From NCBI RefSeq assembly GCF_900114185.1, contig NZ_FOSE01000003.1, forward strand, positions 186,001 to 250,000: a stretch of 64,000 nt of DNA, read 5' to 3'. The notes under the pieces are model-generated. The model made no database searches and was not told where the DNA came from. It saw only the letters and a program-made list of their open reading frames with translations. The position numbers were made by a program, and so were the translations under genes. This stretch comes from Cellulomonas sp. KH9. Its GTDB lineage: Bacteria; Actinomycetota; Actinomycetes; Actinomycetales; Cellulomonadaceae. Positions 30,085 through 42,100 of the stretch are shown here, one piece after another. Each line of letters starts with the position of its first letter. Position 1 is the first letter of the stretch.

Positions 30085-31605
30085 TCAGAGGACCGGTGCC
30101 GACTGCCCGACGACGAGCGGTCCGCCGACCTCGTGGCCGCCGCGCTCGTCGTGCGTGTACGAGTGCGCGACCCGGATGCCGGGGCGGCCCGCCGCGGACG
30201 CGTCGACGACGACCCGGGGGTGGGGGCGCGTCGCGTCGGCCGGGCTGGTCCACGCGACCGCGGCCGCCGTGTACCCGCCGGACCGGGCCGCGTCGCGCGC
30301 CTGCGCCAGGCCGGCGTCGGAGTGCGGGAAGTCCAGCACCTCGACGTCGTACCCCTCGCGCACCAGCACGAACGGGGCGGACCCCGCGGCGTCCGCGACG
30401 GCCCGGTCCAGCGCGAGCTCGAGGGCCCGCAGCGCCAGGTCCTGCACCCGCTCCGAGGGGCGGTGCGGCAGGTCCTCCGGCGTGAGGTGCTGGTGCGCCG
30501 TGACCGGCAGGCCGCGACCGGGCGTGACGGTCGACTGCGGCGCGACGGCGGGCTCCTCGACGAGCGAGGGCTCCTCGACGAGCGCGGGGTCCTCGACGAG
30601 CGAGGGCGCCGCGGCCACGTCGGCCGCGAACGGCTCGGACGCGTCCTCGACGAACGTCGGGGTCCAGGCGGGCGGCTCGTCGGCGGCGTCGTCGGGTCCG
30701 GTGTCCTCGACGAACGTGGGGGTCCAGGCGGCGGGCTCCGGGGAGGTGACCGGGAGGTCGGCGTCGTCGGGCCCGGTGTCCTCGACGAACGTGGGCGTCC
30801 AGGCGGCGGGCTCCGGGGAGGTGACCGGGAGGTCGGCGTCGTCGGTCCCGGTGCCCTCGACGAACGTCGGGGTCCACGCGGCAGGCTCCCGGGCGGGGTC
30901 GTCGAGCCCGGCGTCGCGCGCGGCCAGGTCGCTGCCGGTGTCCTCGACGAACGTCGGGCTCCAGGCGGCGGGCTGCGGGGCGGGCTCGTCGGGCGCGGTG
31001 TCCTCGACGAACGTGGGGGTCCACGCGGCGGGCTGCGGGGCGGGCTCGTCGGCGGGGGAGTCCGGGGCCACGGCCGGCGCCCGGGCCGGCTCGGGCGCGG
31101 TCGCGGCGGGTGCCTGCTCGGAGGCGGGCGCAGGGTGCTGCGTGGGGACCTGCTGCCGGCCGGACACCAGGTGCGCGGCCGCCCGCTGGACGTAGTCGAC
31201 CGTCCACGAGGCCGACCGCACACGCCAGCGCTGGTGGGCGTCGAGCACGGGCAGGACGGGCATGTGGGGCCGGTCCGGCACCAGCACGCCGGGGGTCGCA
31301 CCGTCGGGGCCGGGGCACATCATCCACACCGCGTCGGTGACCGACGCGAGCAGGAGGTCGCCGACCGCGATCCCGAGCGCGGCGGACACGCCGGCGGGTG
31401 CGGGTGCGTCCGCCGGGTGCGTCTGCAGCAGGCGCGCCCAGCGTGCGTCGAGCGCCGCGGCGTCGCGCGCGTCGGTGCCGTCCTCCTGCAGCCAGGCGCG
31501 CAGGCGGTCGAGGTGGGCGGACTCCCCGGGAGTCAGCGGGCGTGCGAGCAAGGGTGCCGTGGGGGCGGCGGACCTCGCCGCGGGCGCGGGCGAGACGGTG
31601 TCCAT
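30085..31605 (-). CDS. DUF3806-like protein with six AWTPTFVED repeats
   Basis: This 506-residue protein has no signal peptide or membrane helix. Residues about 25-145 look like a DUF3806 domain (ALDARWARLLQTHP; ALGIAVGDLLLASVTDAVWM; LVPDRPHMPVLPVLDAHQRW). Residues about 185-325 hold six copies of a PAAWTPTFVED(T) motif spaced by acidic Asp/Gly/Pro linkers; two copies come from a 75-bp tandem duplication. A further acidic stretch (SLVEDPALVEEPSLVEEP) leads to a C-terminal alpha/beta domain of about 150 residues (FVLVREGYDVEVLDFPHSDAG) that I cannot name. The role is unknown; the regular Trp/Phe motifs suggest multivalent binding (inference). Confidence 0.8.
   Translation of the reverse strand: MDTVSPAPAARSAAPTAPLLARPLTPGESAHLDRLRAWLQEDGTDARDAAALDARWARLLQTHPADAPAPAGVSAALGIAVGDLLLASVTDAVWMMCPGPDGATPGVLVPDRPHMPVLPVLDAHQRWRVRSASWTVDYVQRAAAHLVSGRQQVPTQHPAPASEQAPAATAPEPARAPAVAPDSPADEPAPQPAAWTPTFVEDTAPDEPAPQPAAWSPTFVEDTGSDLAARDAGLDDPAREPAAWTPTFVEGTGTDDADLPVTSPEPAAWTPTFVEDTGPDDADLPVTSPEPAAWTPTFVEDTGPDDAADEPPAWTPTFVEDASEPFAADVAAAPSLVEDPALVEEPSLVEEPAVAPQSTVTPGRGLPVTAHQHLTPEDLPHRPSERVQDLALRALELALDRAVADAAGSAPFVLVREGYDVEVLDFPHSDAGLAQARDAARSGGYTAAAVAWTSPADATRPHPRVVVDASAAGRPGIRVAHSYTHDERGGHEVGGPLVVGQSAPVL
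30701..30850. repeat. 75-bp tandem duplication inside the AWTPTFVED-repeat gene
   Basis: Bases 30701-30775 and 30776-30850 are nearly identical (a few substitutions) and encode two 25-residue units. Near-identity at silent positions indicates recent unequal crossing-over or slippage. Other copies of the core motif in the same gene are more diverged. Confidence 0.9.
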
Positions 31606-35044: not shown

Positions 35045-36553
35045 ATGACGGGCAAGAACGGCAACGTGGCCACGGAGCCGGGAGCCACGACGGGCGCGGT
35101 CCCGACGGCGACCGGTTCGGTCACGGCGGTGGACGGCGACGACGCGCTCCTGCGTCTGCCGCAGATCACGGCCGAGGTCCGCGAGGACGGTACGGGCGAG
35201 ATCTCCGTCGACGGCGTCCGGGAGACCATCGCGATGGCCGACCTCGCGCAGGCGGGTGCCGCCGTGACCGGGCGCATCGCGGCGCTCGCGGCCGACGCGG
35301 GCCGTGCGCTGCCCGTCGAGGTCCGCGACCCCGACGGGCTGTGGGCCCTGCTGATCCACCCCGACGGTCGCGTCGACGAGGCGGACGAGCGGGACCTCGC
35401 GCTCAGCGCGCCGGTGCCCGTCGTCGAGCCGGCCGCGTGGTCCACGCCCGACCCGGTGTCGACGCCGACGCCGCTCGTGCCCAGCGGGGCGACCCCCGTG
35501 GTCGGGGACGACGCGGCACCGGGCGCGCCCGCCACGACGTCCGGGCCCGTGCCCGCGGTGGCCGCCGGCGCGGCGACGTCGGGGACCCGCGCCGAGCGGC
35601 GCGCGTCGGACCCGGCGACCCTGCCCACGCTCGACGACCTGCTCGCCGCCCGGCACCCCGGCCACGAGGGCCCGGCCGAGCAGGGCTGGCAGCGCACGGT
35701 CCGCCGCCTCACCTTCGGTGCGGTCAAGCCGCGCCCCGGCGCCGCCGAGCGCACGCGCCGGTCCCAGGTCGAGGCGATCCGCCGCACCTTCGACGGCCCG
35801 CGCACGGTCGTCGTCGTCAACCCCAAGGGCGGCGCGCACAAGACCACCGCCACGATGCTGCTGGCCTCGACGTTCGGGCTCGCCCGCGGCGGGTACACCC
35901 TGGCCTGGGACAACAACGAGACCCGCGGCACGCTGGGCTGGCGCTCCTCGCACGGGGACCACACGCGCACCGCGGTGGACCTGCTGCACTCCCTGCCGGA
36001 CCTCACGCAGCGCGGCACCCTGCGCATCGGCGACCTCGACCAGTTCGTGCGCACGCAGCAGGACGAGCAGTTCGACGTCCTGGCCTCGGACGAGAACGCG
36101 GCGTCGATCGAGAGCGTCGATGCGGCGTCGTACCGGGCGCTGCACGACGTGCTGACGCAGTTCTACCGGGTGCTGGTCGTGGACACGGGCAACAACATGC
36201 GCGCCTCGAACTGGCAGGCGGCGGTGCGCTCGGCCGATCAGCTGGTCGTGGTGTCGACGCTGCGCGAGGACACCGCGCAGTCCGCCGCGTGGGCGCTCGA
36301 CGCGCTGCGGGCGACGGGCCAGGAGGAGCTCGTGCGGCAGGCCGTGACGATCCTGTCGTTCCCCGAGCCCAAGGTCGACAAGGACCTGCGGCAGCGGCTG
36401 CGCTCGCACTTCGGTGCACTGACGCGGGCTGTGGTCGAGGTCCCGCACGACAAGGCGCTGGTGTCCGGCGGACCGATCGACCACGCCTCGCTGCGCCCCG
36501 CGACGCGCGACGCGTGGCTCCGTGCGACCGCCGTGGTGGCCGACGGCCTGTGA
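35045..36553 (+). CDS. ParA/MinD-like ATPase with long N-terminal extension
   Basis: In this 502-residue protein, residues about 30-125 form an acidic alpha/beta region (LPQITAEVREDGTGEISVDG), residues about 130-215 are a Pro/Ala/Thr-rich linker, and the rest is a deviant-Walker ATPase: VVVVNPKGGAHKTTATMLLA with Lys261 and Lys266, then LVVDTGNNMRASNWQAA as the Walker B-like region. This layout resembles EspI-like and other actinobacterial MinD-like proteins rather than chromosomal ParA. No ParB, parS site or type VII secretion gene is in the window. ATG 35045 follows GGGAG. What it positions is unknown. Confidence 0.82.
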   Translation: MTGKNGNVATEPGATTGAVPTATGSVTAVDGDDALLRLPQITAEVREDGTGEISVDGVRETIAMADLAQAGAAVTGRIAALAADAGRALPVEVRDPDGLWALLIHPDGRVDEADERDLALSAPVPVVEPAAWSTPDPVSTPTPLVPSGATPVVGDDAAPGAPATTSGPVPAVAAGAATSGTRAERRASDPATLPTLDDLLAARHPGHEGPAEQGWQRTVRRLTFGAVKPRPGAAERTRRSQVEAIRRTFDGPRTVVVVNPKGGAHKTTATMLLASTFGLARGGYTLAWDNNETRGTLGWRSSHGDHTRTAVDLLHSLPDLTQRGTLRIGDLDQFVRTQQDEQFDVLASDENAASIESVDAASYRALHDVLTQFYRVLVVDTGNNMRASNWQAAVRSADQLVVVSTLREDTAQSAAWALDALRATGQEELVRQAVTILSFPEPKVDKDLRQRLRSHFGALTRAVVEVPHDKALVSGGPIDHASLRPATRDAWLRATAVVADGL

Positions 36554-36742
36554 CGGGACGGGTCGCCGGCGCGCAGCGTCGGCGACCCTGCCGGCCGGTG
36601 CGGCGCGCACGACGGGCCGTCCCCGCGACGACGTCCCGACCGGGCCGTGCAAGATCGGGACACGTCGCGACACCGGGAGGGTGAGGGTGGTGCCCGCACC
36701 GTCCCGACCGACGTCCGACGCACGCCCGACCCGGGAGCCGCA

Positions 36743-37348
36743 GTGCCCGCGCACCCTGAGCACGACACCGACCCCCGCACCGACCCGACCGCGGTCGGCA
36801 CCGCGCACGGCGACGCCGTGCCCACCGGTGCGCCGGACCCCGACACCGTCGCCGCGGACGGTGGGCGCGGTGCGGCGTGGTTCGAGGACCTGGTGCGCGC
36901 GCACGCCACCGCCGTGCACCGGTACGTCCTGCGGCGGGTCGCCCCGTCGGACGTCGAGGACCTGACGGCCGACGTCCTGACGGTCGCCTGGCGGCGCCGC
37001 GACGACGTGCCGGAGGGCGCCGAGCTGCCGTGGCTCTACCGCACCGCGGGCTACGTCGTGGCCAACCACCGGCGCAAGAGCCGGCCCGTGCCCGTCGCGG
37101 ACGTCCCCGAGGAGACGGACGCCGACGACCCCGCGCTGCGGGCCGTGCGTGACGACACCGTGCGGACCGTGCTCGCGGGCCTGTCGGCGCGCGACCGCGA
37201 GGTGCTGCTGCTGCACGCCTGGGAGGGCCTGACGGGGGACGCGCTGGCCGCCGCGCTCGGCACCGGCCGGGGCGGGGCCGACGCGGCGCTGTCCCGCGCC
37301 CGTGCGCGCCTGCGGACCGCGTTCGCCGCGGCGGGCGTCGACGGCTGA
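36743..37348 (+). CDS. ECF-type RNA polymerase sigma factor
   Basis: This 201-residue sigma-70-like protein has region 2 (WFEDLVRAHATAVHRYVLRR; DVEDLTADVLTVAWRRRDD; LPWLYRTAGYVVANHRR) and region 4 (LSARDREVLLLHAWEGLTGD; GRGGADAALSRARARLRTAF). The N-terminus is a disordered Asp/Pro-rich stretch. GTG 36743 follows GGGAG by 5 bases; GTG 36647 would add 32 residues with no ribosome-binding site. The next gene, 122 bases downstream, encodes a single-pass membrane protein that may be its anti-sigma factor. Confidence 0.85.
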   Translation: MPAHPEHDTDPRTDPTAVGTAHGDAVPTGAPDPDTVAADGGRGAAWFEDLVRAHATAVHRYVLRRVAPSDVEDLTADVLTVAWRRRDDVPEGAELPWLYRTAGYVVANHRRKSRPVPVADVPEETDADDPALRAVRDDTVRTVLAGLSARDREVLLLHAWEGLTGDALAAALGTGRGGADAALSRARARLRTAFAAAGVDG

Positions 37349-37470: not shown

Positions 37471-38997
37471 ATGGACGACACGCGCGACCCCGGCACCGGC
37501 GTCCCCGGCACCGGCGTCCCCGACGACGACGCCCCCGACGCCCCGGGCCGCGGCGGCACCGCCGACGCCCCGGGCACCGCCGACGCCCCGGGCACCGCCG
37601 ACGCCCCGGGCACCGCCGACGCCCCGGGCACCGCCGACGCCGCCGTGGCCCGCGTGCGCGCCGCCGACCCGGCGGCCGGTGCGGAGCCCGACCCCGCGCG
37701 GCTGCGGGCACGCCTCGCCGTGAGCACCGGCGTGCGGCTCGGACCCGGCGGTGCCGCACCCGCGCCGGACGAGCTCGCGGCCGCCCGTGCCCGGCGACGC
37801 CCCGCCCGGTGGCTGCAGGTGGCCGCCGTCGCCGCGGGCATCGCGGTCGTCGGTGGCGGCGGGTACGCGGTCGGTGCCGCCGGGCCGGACGAGCCGGCCG
37901 CGCCCGCGATCGCCCTGCAGGGCGGTGGCGCGGGCGCGGCCGAGATGGCGGCGGACGCGCGCATGGCCGGCGGGTGGTTCGGCGGGCGCACCGTGTTCAC
38001 GGGCAGCGGCCTGGAGGGTGCGGCGGGGTCCGCGCAGGCATGGGCGCTCGACGCGTCGCAGGCCGCCACGGCGCAGACGGCCGCGCAGGTGGCCGACGTG
38101 CTCGGTGTGCCCGGCGAGCCGCGGCAGGAGTGGGGGCAGTGGGTCGTCGGCTCGGCCGACGGCACGTCCGCGACGGTCCAGGTGGGCATCGACGGGTACG
38201 CGAGCGTCTGGTTCTACGACCCCGCCCACGACCCCTCGTCCTGCACGGGGGGGACGTCGGGCGGACCGGACGACAGCGCGTCCGTCGAGCCGGCGGCACC
38301 GGGGTCCGTCGAGGGAGCGGCGGCCGCCCCGGAGGGCGGTGGGCCGGACGTCTCGATCCAGCCCGATCCCGGAGCGTGCGACCCCGCCGGCACCCCGACC
38401 GGTGACGCGGCGATCGAGCGGGCCCGCGACCTCATGGCGGAGCTCGGGGTGGGACCCGACGGCTACGAGGTGACGGTGGCCGACGAGACCGGCGTGCCCG
38501 GCCTGGTGAACGTGACCGGCACGCAGGTCGTCGACGGTAACCAGACCGGGATGGGGTGGTCGGTGCAGCTGGCGGGGGACGGCGTGCAGTCGCTCTACGG
38601 CACGCTCGCGCCCCTCGTGCCGCTCGGCACGTACGACGTGATCAGCGCCGACGAGGCCGTCGAGCGGCTGAACGACCCCCGGTTCGGTGCGTCGCCCAGC
38701 GGCGTCGTGCCGCTCGCCGCGCGCGCCGAGGGCGGCGTCGCGACGCTCGACGAGACCGCGACGATGCTGCCGGAGCCGGTCGAGCCGACCGTGCCCCCGG
38801 TGCCCGCGCCCGGTGACCCCGTGGCCTGGCCCGTGCAGCAGGTGACCCTGACCGGCGCCCGACTGGGTGTCACGGTGCTCACCGCGCCGGACGGCGCCGT
38901 GCTCGTCGTCCCGGCGTGGGAGCTCACCGACGCCGACGGCGGCACGTGGAGCGTCGTCGCGGTGGTGGAGGACCAGCTCGACCTGAGCCCCGCCTGA
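37471..38997 (+). CDS. Single-pass membrane protein after the ECF sigma gene, possible anti-sigma factor
   Basis: In this 508-residue protein, residues 1-60 are low complexity with four exact TADAPG repeats. A short cytosolic helical region (ADPARLRARLAVSTG) precedes one membrane helix (WLQVAAVAAGIAVVGGGGYAVG, about residues 113-134). The outside part of about 370 residues is acidic and contains paired Cys (SSCTGG, GACDPAG). There is no classic zinc anti-sigma HxxxCxxC motif. The position after a sigma gene suggests a regulatory partner, but the sequence alone does not prove it. ATG 37471 has AGGAGG 5 bases upstream. Confidence 0.75.
   Translation: MDDTRDPGTGVPGTGVPDDDAPDAPGRGGTADAPGTADAPGTADAPGTADAPGTADAAVARVRAADPAAGAEPDPARLRARLAVSTGVRLGPGGAAPAPDELAAARARRRPARWLQVAAVAAGIAVVGGGGYAVGAAGPDEPAAPAIALQGGGAGAAEMAADARMAGGWFGGRTVFTGSGLEGAAGSAQAWALDASQAATAQTAAQVADVLGVPGEPRQEWGQWVVGSADGTSATVQVGIDGYASVWFYDPAHDPSSCTGGTSGGPDDSASVEPAAPGSVEGAAAAPEGGGPDVSIQPDPGACDPAGTPTGDAAIERARDLMAELGVGPDGYEVTVADETGVPGLVNVTGTQVVDGNQTGMGWSVQLAGDGVQSLYGTLAPLVPLGTYDVISADEAVERLNDPRFGASPSGVVPLAARAEGGVATLDETATMLPEPVEPTVPPVPAPGDPVAWPVQQVTLTGARLGVTVLTAPDGAVLVVPAWELTDADGGTWSVVAVVEDQLDLSPA
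37558..37641. repeat. 18-bp tandem repeat coding TADAPG
   Basis: Four identical copies of ACCGCCGACGCCCCGGGC occupy 37558-37629, and a partial fifth copy ends at 37641. It is in frame in the membrane-protein gene. Exact identity implies recent slippage expansion. Confidence 0.92.
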
Positions 38998-40785: not shown

Positions 40786-41997
40786 TCAGGCGTCGTGCGG
40801 TGCACCGTCCGGACGGACGCCCCGCAGCACCGTCGCCAGGTGCGCCACGAACCAGCCGGGTCCGGCGGTCGGCCAGTCGCGCGCGACCGACGCGATCGGG
40901 TAGACGAGCACCTCGGGGTCCTCGCGGGCCAGCACGATCTCGGTGCCGAACCGGTCGCTGCACGTCGCCCAGCCCAGGTCGGGCACCTCGGCGCACACGA
41001 GGTCGCCGAGCGCGACGCCGAACGCGTCCGCCAGGGGCCGCGGGTCGGGCCGGTCGTCCGCCTGGGTCCACTGCTCGTGCACGCGGTCGAACAGCGCGCC
41101 GACCGCGTCGGCGTCGAACGGGTCGCGGCACAGCTCCGCGACCATGGCCCGCTGCTGCCCGAGGAACAGCCGCTCGGCCGGGTTGAGCTCGTCGATCCGG
41201 TGCCGCGTGTCCGACAGCGCCGTCGCCACGGGACCGACGGGGGCGGGCGGCGCCACCGCCGGGTCGGGGCCGGGGGTCGGCCCGGTGTCCGGGAGCGCCG
41301 CGTCGTCCGTGAGCTCCGTGTCGTCCGTGAGCTCCGCGTCGTCCGTGAGCGCCACGTCGTCGGGGGGCTCGGTGCCCGTGGGTTCGTCGTCGGCGGGGGT
41401 GTCCGCGGGTTCCTCGTCGGTGCTGGCGGGGTCCGCCGGATCGTCACCCTCGGCGTCCGGTGCCACGTCGTCCGGTGCGGCTGCTCCCTCGTCCGCACCG
41501 GGGAGCGCCGGCTCGTCGTCGGCGGCGGGTGCGGGACCGGGGGCGTCCTCCGCTGCCGGGTCCTCCGGTGCCACGTCCTCAGCGGCGTCCTCGGCAGCCT
41601 CGGCGTCGGCGACGTCCTCGGCGACGACAGCCTCCTCGGCGTCGGCGACCTCGGTGGCGTCGGCGACCCCGGTGGCCACCTCGGCGTCGGCAGCCTCCGC
41701 AGCGTCTGCAGCCTCCGCAGCGTCGGCAGCCTCCGCAGCGTCGGCAGCCTCCGCGGCGTCCGCAGCGTCCTCGACCTCCTCGGCACCCTCGGGTGACGCG
41801 GGACGCTGCCGTTCCGCGTCGTCCGGCTCGTCGGGTACCTCGGCGAGGTGCTCGACCACGCGCAGCAGCGCGACCGTGTCCGGCGTGCCGCCCTCCGCCA
41901 CGGCGGCCGGCCCCTCGGGCGGGGACGCGTCGGTCGGTCCGTGGGGGGTGGGCAGCACGGATCCGCTCCCTTGCGGTGTCCGTCGGTCCAGTCCCAT
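40786..41997 (-). CDS. Second DUF3806-like protein with long acidic repeat region
   Basis: In this 403-residue protein, residues about 30-60 contain a helix (TVALLRVVEHLAEVPDEPDD). Residues about 75-260 are extremely acidic and Ala/Pro-rich, with AEAADA hexapeptides and (A/E)LTDD(A/T/D)E repeats. The C-terminal 140 residues look like a DUF3806 domain (LNPAERLFLGQQRAMVAELC; FDRVHEQWTQADD; AFGVALGDLVCAEVPDLGWA; LVYPIASVARDWP). It is therefore a domain relative of the 30085-31605 product with the module order reversed. ATG 41997 is chosen over a GTG two codons upstream. Function unknown. Confidence 0.8.
   Translation of the reverse strand: MGLDRRTPQGSGSVLPTPHGPTDASPPEGPAAVAEGGTPDTVALLRVVEHLAEVPDEPDDAERQRPASPEGAEEVEDAADAAEAADAAEAADAAEAADAAEAADAEVATGVADATEVADAEEAVVAEDVADAEAAEDAAEDVAPEDPAAEDAPGPAPAADDEPALPGADEGAAAPDDVAPDAEGDDPADPASTDEEPADTPADDEPTGTEPPDDVALTDDAELTDDTELTDDAALPDTGPTPGPDPAVAPPAPVGPVATALSDTRHRIDELNPAERLFLGQQRAMVAELCRDPFDADAVGALFDRVHEQWTQADDRPDPRPLADAFGVALGDLVCAEVPDLGWATCSDRFGTEIVLAREDPEVLVYPIASVARDWPTAGPGWFVAHLATVLRGVRPDGAPHDA
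41293..41364. repeat. Imperfect 18-bp tandem repeat (four copies)
   Basis: Four units of the type GAGCTCCGCGTCGTCCGT (41293-41310, 41311-41328, 41329-41346, 41347-41364) encode ALTDDA/ELTDDT-like hexapeptides in the second DUF3806 gene. Confidence 0.85.
41690..41761. repeat. 18-bp tandem repeat coding AEAADA
   Basis: Four units of GCAGCCTCCGCAGCGTCG with one or two changes lie at 41690-41707, 41708-41725, 41726-41743 and 41744-41761. They encode acidic Ala-rich hexapeptides in the second DUF3806 gene. Confidence 0.9.
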
Positions 41998-42100
41998 GCG
42001 CACGCATCGGCCGCGCGGCGCCCCGGCTTGACACGTGCGAGCGGGTGTCGCCCGGTCGGCCCCCGGGCGGCACCCGCTCGATGCGCGGTGCGGACGCGTG

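Follow-up and report, generated by a model that had tools for sequence, protein, structure and literature searches.

A clade-specific array of AWTPT[FLV]V peptides in the linker of a DUF3806-like two-domain protein of Cellulomonas

A reading frame in the 64-kb stretch of Cellulomonas DNA analysed here (the whole stretch is called the window) encodes a protein in which a short tryptophan-containing peptide recurs six times between two domains. This raises the question whether the repeat is a module held by selection or a product of tandem duplication, how far it belongs to the protein family as such, and what it might do.

Occurrence and domain architecture

The frame (30085..31605, on the minus strand, as are all parts of it given below) opens with ATG and codes for 506 aa, arranged as a DUF3806-like domain, a disordered repeat linker and a C-terminal domain. 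It is a coding frame, and 57 Cellulomonas proteins with both domains, the window protein included, were used in the alignments and the tree; these remained from 61 loci after three with one domain only (L042, L043, L092) and a truncated one (L062) had been dropped. BLAST found the protein in 60 of 81 genomes of the genus, and profile matches, which include single-domain ones and some of a DUF3806 paralogue, were obtained in 88 of 221 genomes of the family and 27 of 297 genomes of the order. A contig scan yielded relatives in C. phragmiteti and in a Cellulomonas MAG, and a search of viral contigs returned no relative. The common gene order is target / VanY-like / LigD-polymerase, with a VanY or LigD neighbour at 52 of the 61 loci as counted from the listing, the window's own included; of the other nine loci, six are found close to or directly at the end of a contig, the exceptions being L069, L075 and L083. 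This conservation of the neighbourhood therefore supports the orthology of most of the aligned proteins. As observations on the surrounding genes, a MinD/ParA-like ATPase that bears a long extension at its N-terminus (35045-36553, plus strand) and is sub-threshold in Pfam is found near a subset of the homologous loci, and a sigma-70-like gene (36647-37348) precedes a 508-aa protein (37471-38997, plus strand) that has no Pfam match, carries a GTADAP tandem repeat close to the N-terminal end and, on visual inspection, seems to contain a membrane segment; from its position, the latter is possibly an anti-sigma factor.

The N-terminal domain (residues 18-146, 31168..31554) was delimited by our own profile, a sub-threshold PF12713 match and a fold match to 3hlz_A. 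A preliminary description had called the protein DUF3806-like, a fair term, if a weak one on sequence grounds, the window protein itself scoring 13.4 bits against the PF12713 (DUF3806) gathering cut-off of 21; four of ten homologues scanned singly (L085, L066, L054, L074) exceed that cut-off. L121 from another genus exceeds it as well, and matches at E up to 0.1 occur in 36 of the 57 proteins. With the window protein below and four homologues above the cut-off, we therefore speak of a DUF3806-like domain and not of a family member. On the structural side, the N domain of the short-linker homologue L066 aligned with residues 139-267 of PDB 3hlz at Z 13.2 (rmsd 2.6, 118 aligned residues) and that of the window protein at Z 12.9, the next structural matches for this region of L066 being under Z 3. 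The folds are similar at 16% identity, and the Foldseek E-values for the match are weak (0.054 and 0.11). A profile search of solved structures with the alignment gave no match, 3hlz included, and L121 and the paralogue, used as single-sequence structure queries, gave weak, unrelated-looking matches, again without 3hlz. By its PDB title, 3hlz is BT_1490 of Bacteroides thetaiotaomicron, and two papers (PMC8941943, PMC12751083) describe a BT_1490 that contains a beta-propeller and binds vitamin B12 through its C-terminal region; the protein so described may not be that of 3hlz, and we therefore assign no B12 function. In the literature collection searched, no paper contained the terms DUF3806 or PF12713. 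The likeness to the DUF3806 family lies in the N domain, and both the linker array and the C domain fall outside that family. About 10 kb away, the window also encodes a DUF3806 paralogue (40786-42003, minus strand; 29.5 bits, over the cut-off), whose N-terminal half is long, acidic and of low complexity (EAADA and LTDDAE repeats), and in several genomes of the genus a comparable second match is located no more than some 10-20 kb away from the first.

The linker (residues 147-373, 30487..31167) is acidic, with a net charge of -38. In a structure model of the window protein built from the 57-row alignment (mean pLDDT 70.8), the domains reached 87-98 and the linker 39-53 by ten-residue block, and a model of the short-linker L066, also from a 57-row alignment, likewise had two confident domains and a disordered linker, with a mean pLDDT of 87.1. 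The array thus sits between two confidently modelled domains, as first proposed, in a segment predicted to be disordered, and no export signal is visible by eye in the protein, again in line with the preliminary description. Linkers as short as 12 aa and as long as 265 aa occur among the 57 proteins.

Motif copies and their distribution

All six copies reported earlier were recovered as AW(T/S)PTFVE(D/G). Four read exactly AWTPTFVED, namely copy 1 (residues 194-202, 31000..31026), copy 4 (268-276, 30778..30804), copy 5 (293-301, 30703..30729) and copy 6 (313-321, 30643..30669), copy 2 has a serine (AWSPTFVED, 214-222, 30940..30966) and copy 3 ends in EG (AWTPTFVEG, 243-251, 30853..30879). Copies 4 and 5 lie in the 75-bp duplication, whose near identity was borne out at 73 of 75 bases, and a second duplication of 60 bp is identical at 55 of 60. 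An 18-bp tandem repeat (30550..30607) codes for part of PSLVEDPALVEEPSLVEEP, and the sister protein L033 reads VVLEEPAVVEEPAVVEEP at this position; the repeat may represent the array's end in degenerate form. Altogether, the tandem-repeat listing of the window has 47 rows, some of them overlapping. Against the six copies observed, 2000 shuffles of the linker averaged 0.013 occurrences of W.P.[FLV]V, and none of them contained as many as six.

Elsewhere in its own genome the repeat has no counterpart: all five matches to a W[TS]PT-type DNA pattern fall in the window gene, and a looser pattern gave eight matches, six in the gene and two at single sites elsewhere, with one in the control. Motif repeats are thus confined to this gene, and nothing here points to a network of proteins with a common partner. 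In several genomes a WAPTFV site is found some 50-70 kb away from the gene. It was set aside as unrelated, because in L106 it lies inside a gene that we take from its sequence to encode a lysyl-tRNA synthetase; the own-genome match at C5:287164 may lie in that synthetase gene as well.

We know of no named motif that matches the core W-x-P-T-[FLV]-V, and the earlier statement that no named repeat fits agrees with the profile searches, in which the sole repeat family to match was Fn_bind (PF02986, residues 198-207), at 11 bits far below its cut-off of 21.2. One of the 57 proteins matched it at E 0.001. In view of this score and of a protein without an export signal by eye, we took a fibronectin-binding repeat to be a chance match. 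Phosphorylation at the TP of the motif was likewise dropped, as the threonine at +1 is replaced by alanine or valine in 7 of 51 copies. A literature text search for WTPTF returned one paper, on tumour stroma.

Of the 57 proteins, 11 contain W[TSAV]P[TA][FLV]V. Ten of these make up one clade (SH-aLRT 93 in a quick tree without bootstrap); the other, L051, has a single WTPAVV, which is the second of the two changes that the tree requires at minimum. L044, which adjoins the motif clade, has no motif. The array itself has a single clade of origin. Its members carry one to nine copies each, 51 in total by a stricter pattern, at spacings of 14-35 residues. With the looser W.P.[FLV]V the count rises to 13 of 57, two relatives of L051 gaining one site each. 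Homologues with both flanking domains and no motif, which the preliminary description had named as counter-evidence, are in the majority, at 46 of 57 proteins (44 when counted with the looser pattern). The array is accordingly an elaboration peculiar to one clade and not a building block common to the family.

The linker is not empty of motifs elsewhere, however. Among the 47 proteins outside the motif clade, [LM]PxR was observed 49 times as against 1.9 expected from shuffles, and LPxR reaches three to seven copies in L081 and in a clade made up of L065, L077, L079, L082 and L085. Different lineages thus seem to accumulate different short motifs at this linker position.

Constraint within the copies

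In alignments of sister proteins, where repeat alignment favours pairing W with W, the tryptophan was kept in 34 of 35 cases, the proline in 35 of 35, the threonine at +3 in 31 of 35 and the valine in 34 of 35. Taken together, W0, P2, T3 and V5 were kept in 134 of 140 cases against 602 of 838 for spacer residues, although both directions of the three sister pairs are counted, so that counts are doubled and p values flattering. The variable hydrophobic site (19/35) and the acidic sites (21/35 each) were not kept in this way when set against the same 602 of 838. The claim that Trp, Phe and the acidic pair are all retained consequently stands for the tryptophan and is not supported for the other two.

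The codons of the core lead to a similar result. Silent to replacement changes in the P, T and V codons were 16:3 against 34:39 in the spacers (p 0.004), and 16:2 against 33:41 in the reverse direction (p 0.001). Counted by column, C/G exchanges in the motif gave 5/5 for silent and 6/14 for replacement ones (p 0.045), and in the spacers 8/8 and 19/23 (p 0.55). Moreover, copies from different species have diverged at silent sites (0.34) as far as the N domain (0.35) and the C domain (0.36) have, which means that the conservation is not a matter of recent origin alone. The ratio for the whole eight-codon motif was nonetheless null, at 0.41 in the sister pairs against 0.52 for the spacers (p = 1.0) and 0.11 for the domains.

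The choice of copies affects such ratios. The 51 copies chosen by pattern gave pN/pS from 0.20 (W..V) to 0.36 (-1..+7) against 1.15-1.25 in the spacers, which we do not use as main evidence because motif-based choice biases them low. With copies chosen by any linker Trp, the 3 of 63 without P at +2 being tabulated apart, pN/pS over +2..+5 was 0.46 against about 1.2 in the spacers, and with those chosen by W-x-P it was 0.85 over +1 and +3..+7, the N and C domains having 0.25 and 0.20. Core constraint is observed in three sister pairs, and from these sequence comparisons purifying selection looks to hold W-x-P-T-[FLV]-V, with the Phe and the acidic pair not specially kept. Greater constraint on the core than on the spacers, the pattern by which we would recognize a selected motif array, was thus found alongside a null ratio for the motif as a whole, and the earlier proposal of selection rather than plain slippage is supported for the core (16:3 against 34:39) and not for the full motif.

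Readings of the array and the C-terminal domain

Our tentative reading, to which we give somewhat less than even confidence, is that the linker forms a disordered acidic tether along which core-constrained, weak docking peptides for a putative partner are repeated. The linker would be a disordered, tolerant site between two domains, which in one Cellulomonas clade tandem duplication would have filled with AWTPT[FLV]V peptides at intervals of 14 to 35 residues; purifying selection would then keep W, P, T and V, with acidic and proline spacers, copy number and the residues after V left to drift. The peptides might act as weak stickers in an acidic spacer that dock on one putative partner surface, and repeated docking would give avidity or clustering; binding, multivalency and partner alike are what we infer. 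Short-linear-motif arrays in disordered regions likewise combine a short conserved core with variable spacers and copy number. Against this reading stand the null whole-motif ratio, the 0.85 obtained with copies chosen by W-x-P, both values well in excess of those of the domains, the 46 of 57 proteins in which the motif is absent, and a structure model in which the linker (pLDDT 39-53) does not dock.

The main rival, a near-neutral tandem expansion, possible though less likely in our view, would instead have slippage and unequal crossing-over in GC-rich DNA act on a linker that tolerates any disordered sequence, the conservation being apparent and due to frequent re-copying and motif-based copy choice. 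It would account for the near-identical 75-bp and 60-bp duplications, the 47 partly overlapping tandem-repeat rows of the window, the one to nine copies across the clade, the null whole-motif ratio and the 46 of 57 proteins without the motif, but it is at odds with a silent divergence between species equal to that of the domains, with the significant P/T/V contrast and with sister alignments that keep W in 34 and P in 35 of 35 cases. We regard it as decidedly unlikely that the motif docks within the molecule on its own domains, setting their spacing or covering a site, as the structure model predicts no docking of the linker (pLDDT 39-53) and 27 of the 47 proteins outside the clade lack a linker Trp; the confinement of the repeated motif to the window gene in its own genome, the one Trp in P-W-[IY] context in the very short linkers of L069, L070, L075, L078 and L083, and an AWTSP within the C domain in nine of the ten motif-clade proteins would nevertheless fit such an element. 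Very unlikely is a spacer or solubility role in which nothing beyond disorder, acidity and length would count and the motif would have no part: the 12 to 265 aa range and the acidity of all ten motif-clade linkers (net charge -13 to -48) suit it, yet it leaves the core constraint and the excess of LPxR in other proteins (49 seen, 1.9 expected in 47) unexplained.

If the array does bind, as in the docking reading that we favour, it would offer a compact bacterial system in which a docking motif arose, multiplied and held its core in close species, with motif-free homologues as natural controls. An unlikely extension would have the linker as a recurrent evolutionary site for motif arrays (AWTPT[FLV]V in one clade, LPxR in others) through whose sticker-and-spacer multivalency each lineage would connect a cytoplasmic two-domain hub to partners of its own, which, if true, would be a bacterial case of serial motif replacement within one linker.

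The analysis also draws attention to DUF3806 and to an actinobacterial C-terminal domain named in neither Pfam nor NCBIfam. This domain (residues 374-506, 30088..30486), alpha-beta in the structure model, was delimited by our own profile and has stand-alone relatives in other genera. Its best fold matches, to ComZ pilin at Z 6.7 and 6.3, lie in a range that possibly reflects a common arrangement only, and are not taken as a fold assignment. Six relatives of the domain (L112, L114, L115, L117, L121, L123) had no above-cut-off Pfam or NCBIfam match in it, and the gene neighbours of stand-alone relatives at five loci brought out no partner. In L121, which belongs to a different genus within the family, the N domain is followed almost directly by the C domain, and in another family of the order the relatives are open frames of 135 aa (L112, L113, L114). 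Together with its stand-alone relatives, the domain is a candidate new actinobacterial domain family. Relatives without a DUF3806-like domain were located at L112:3962-4363, L114:3917-4318, L115:4344-4772, L117:3726-4175 and L123:3715-4254, and L113 and L122 resemble these stand-alone forms.
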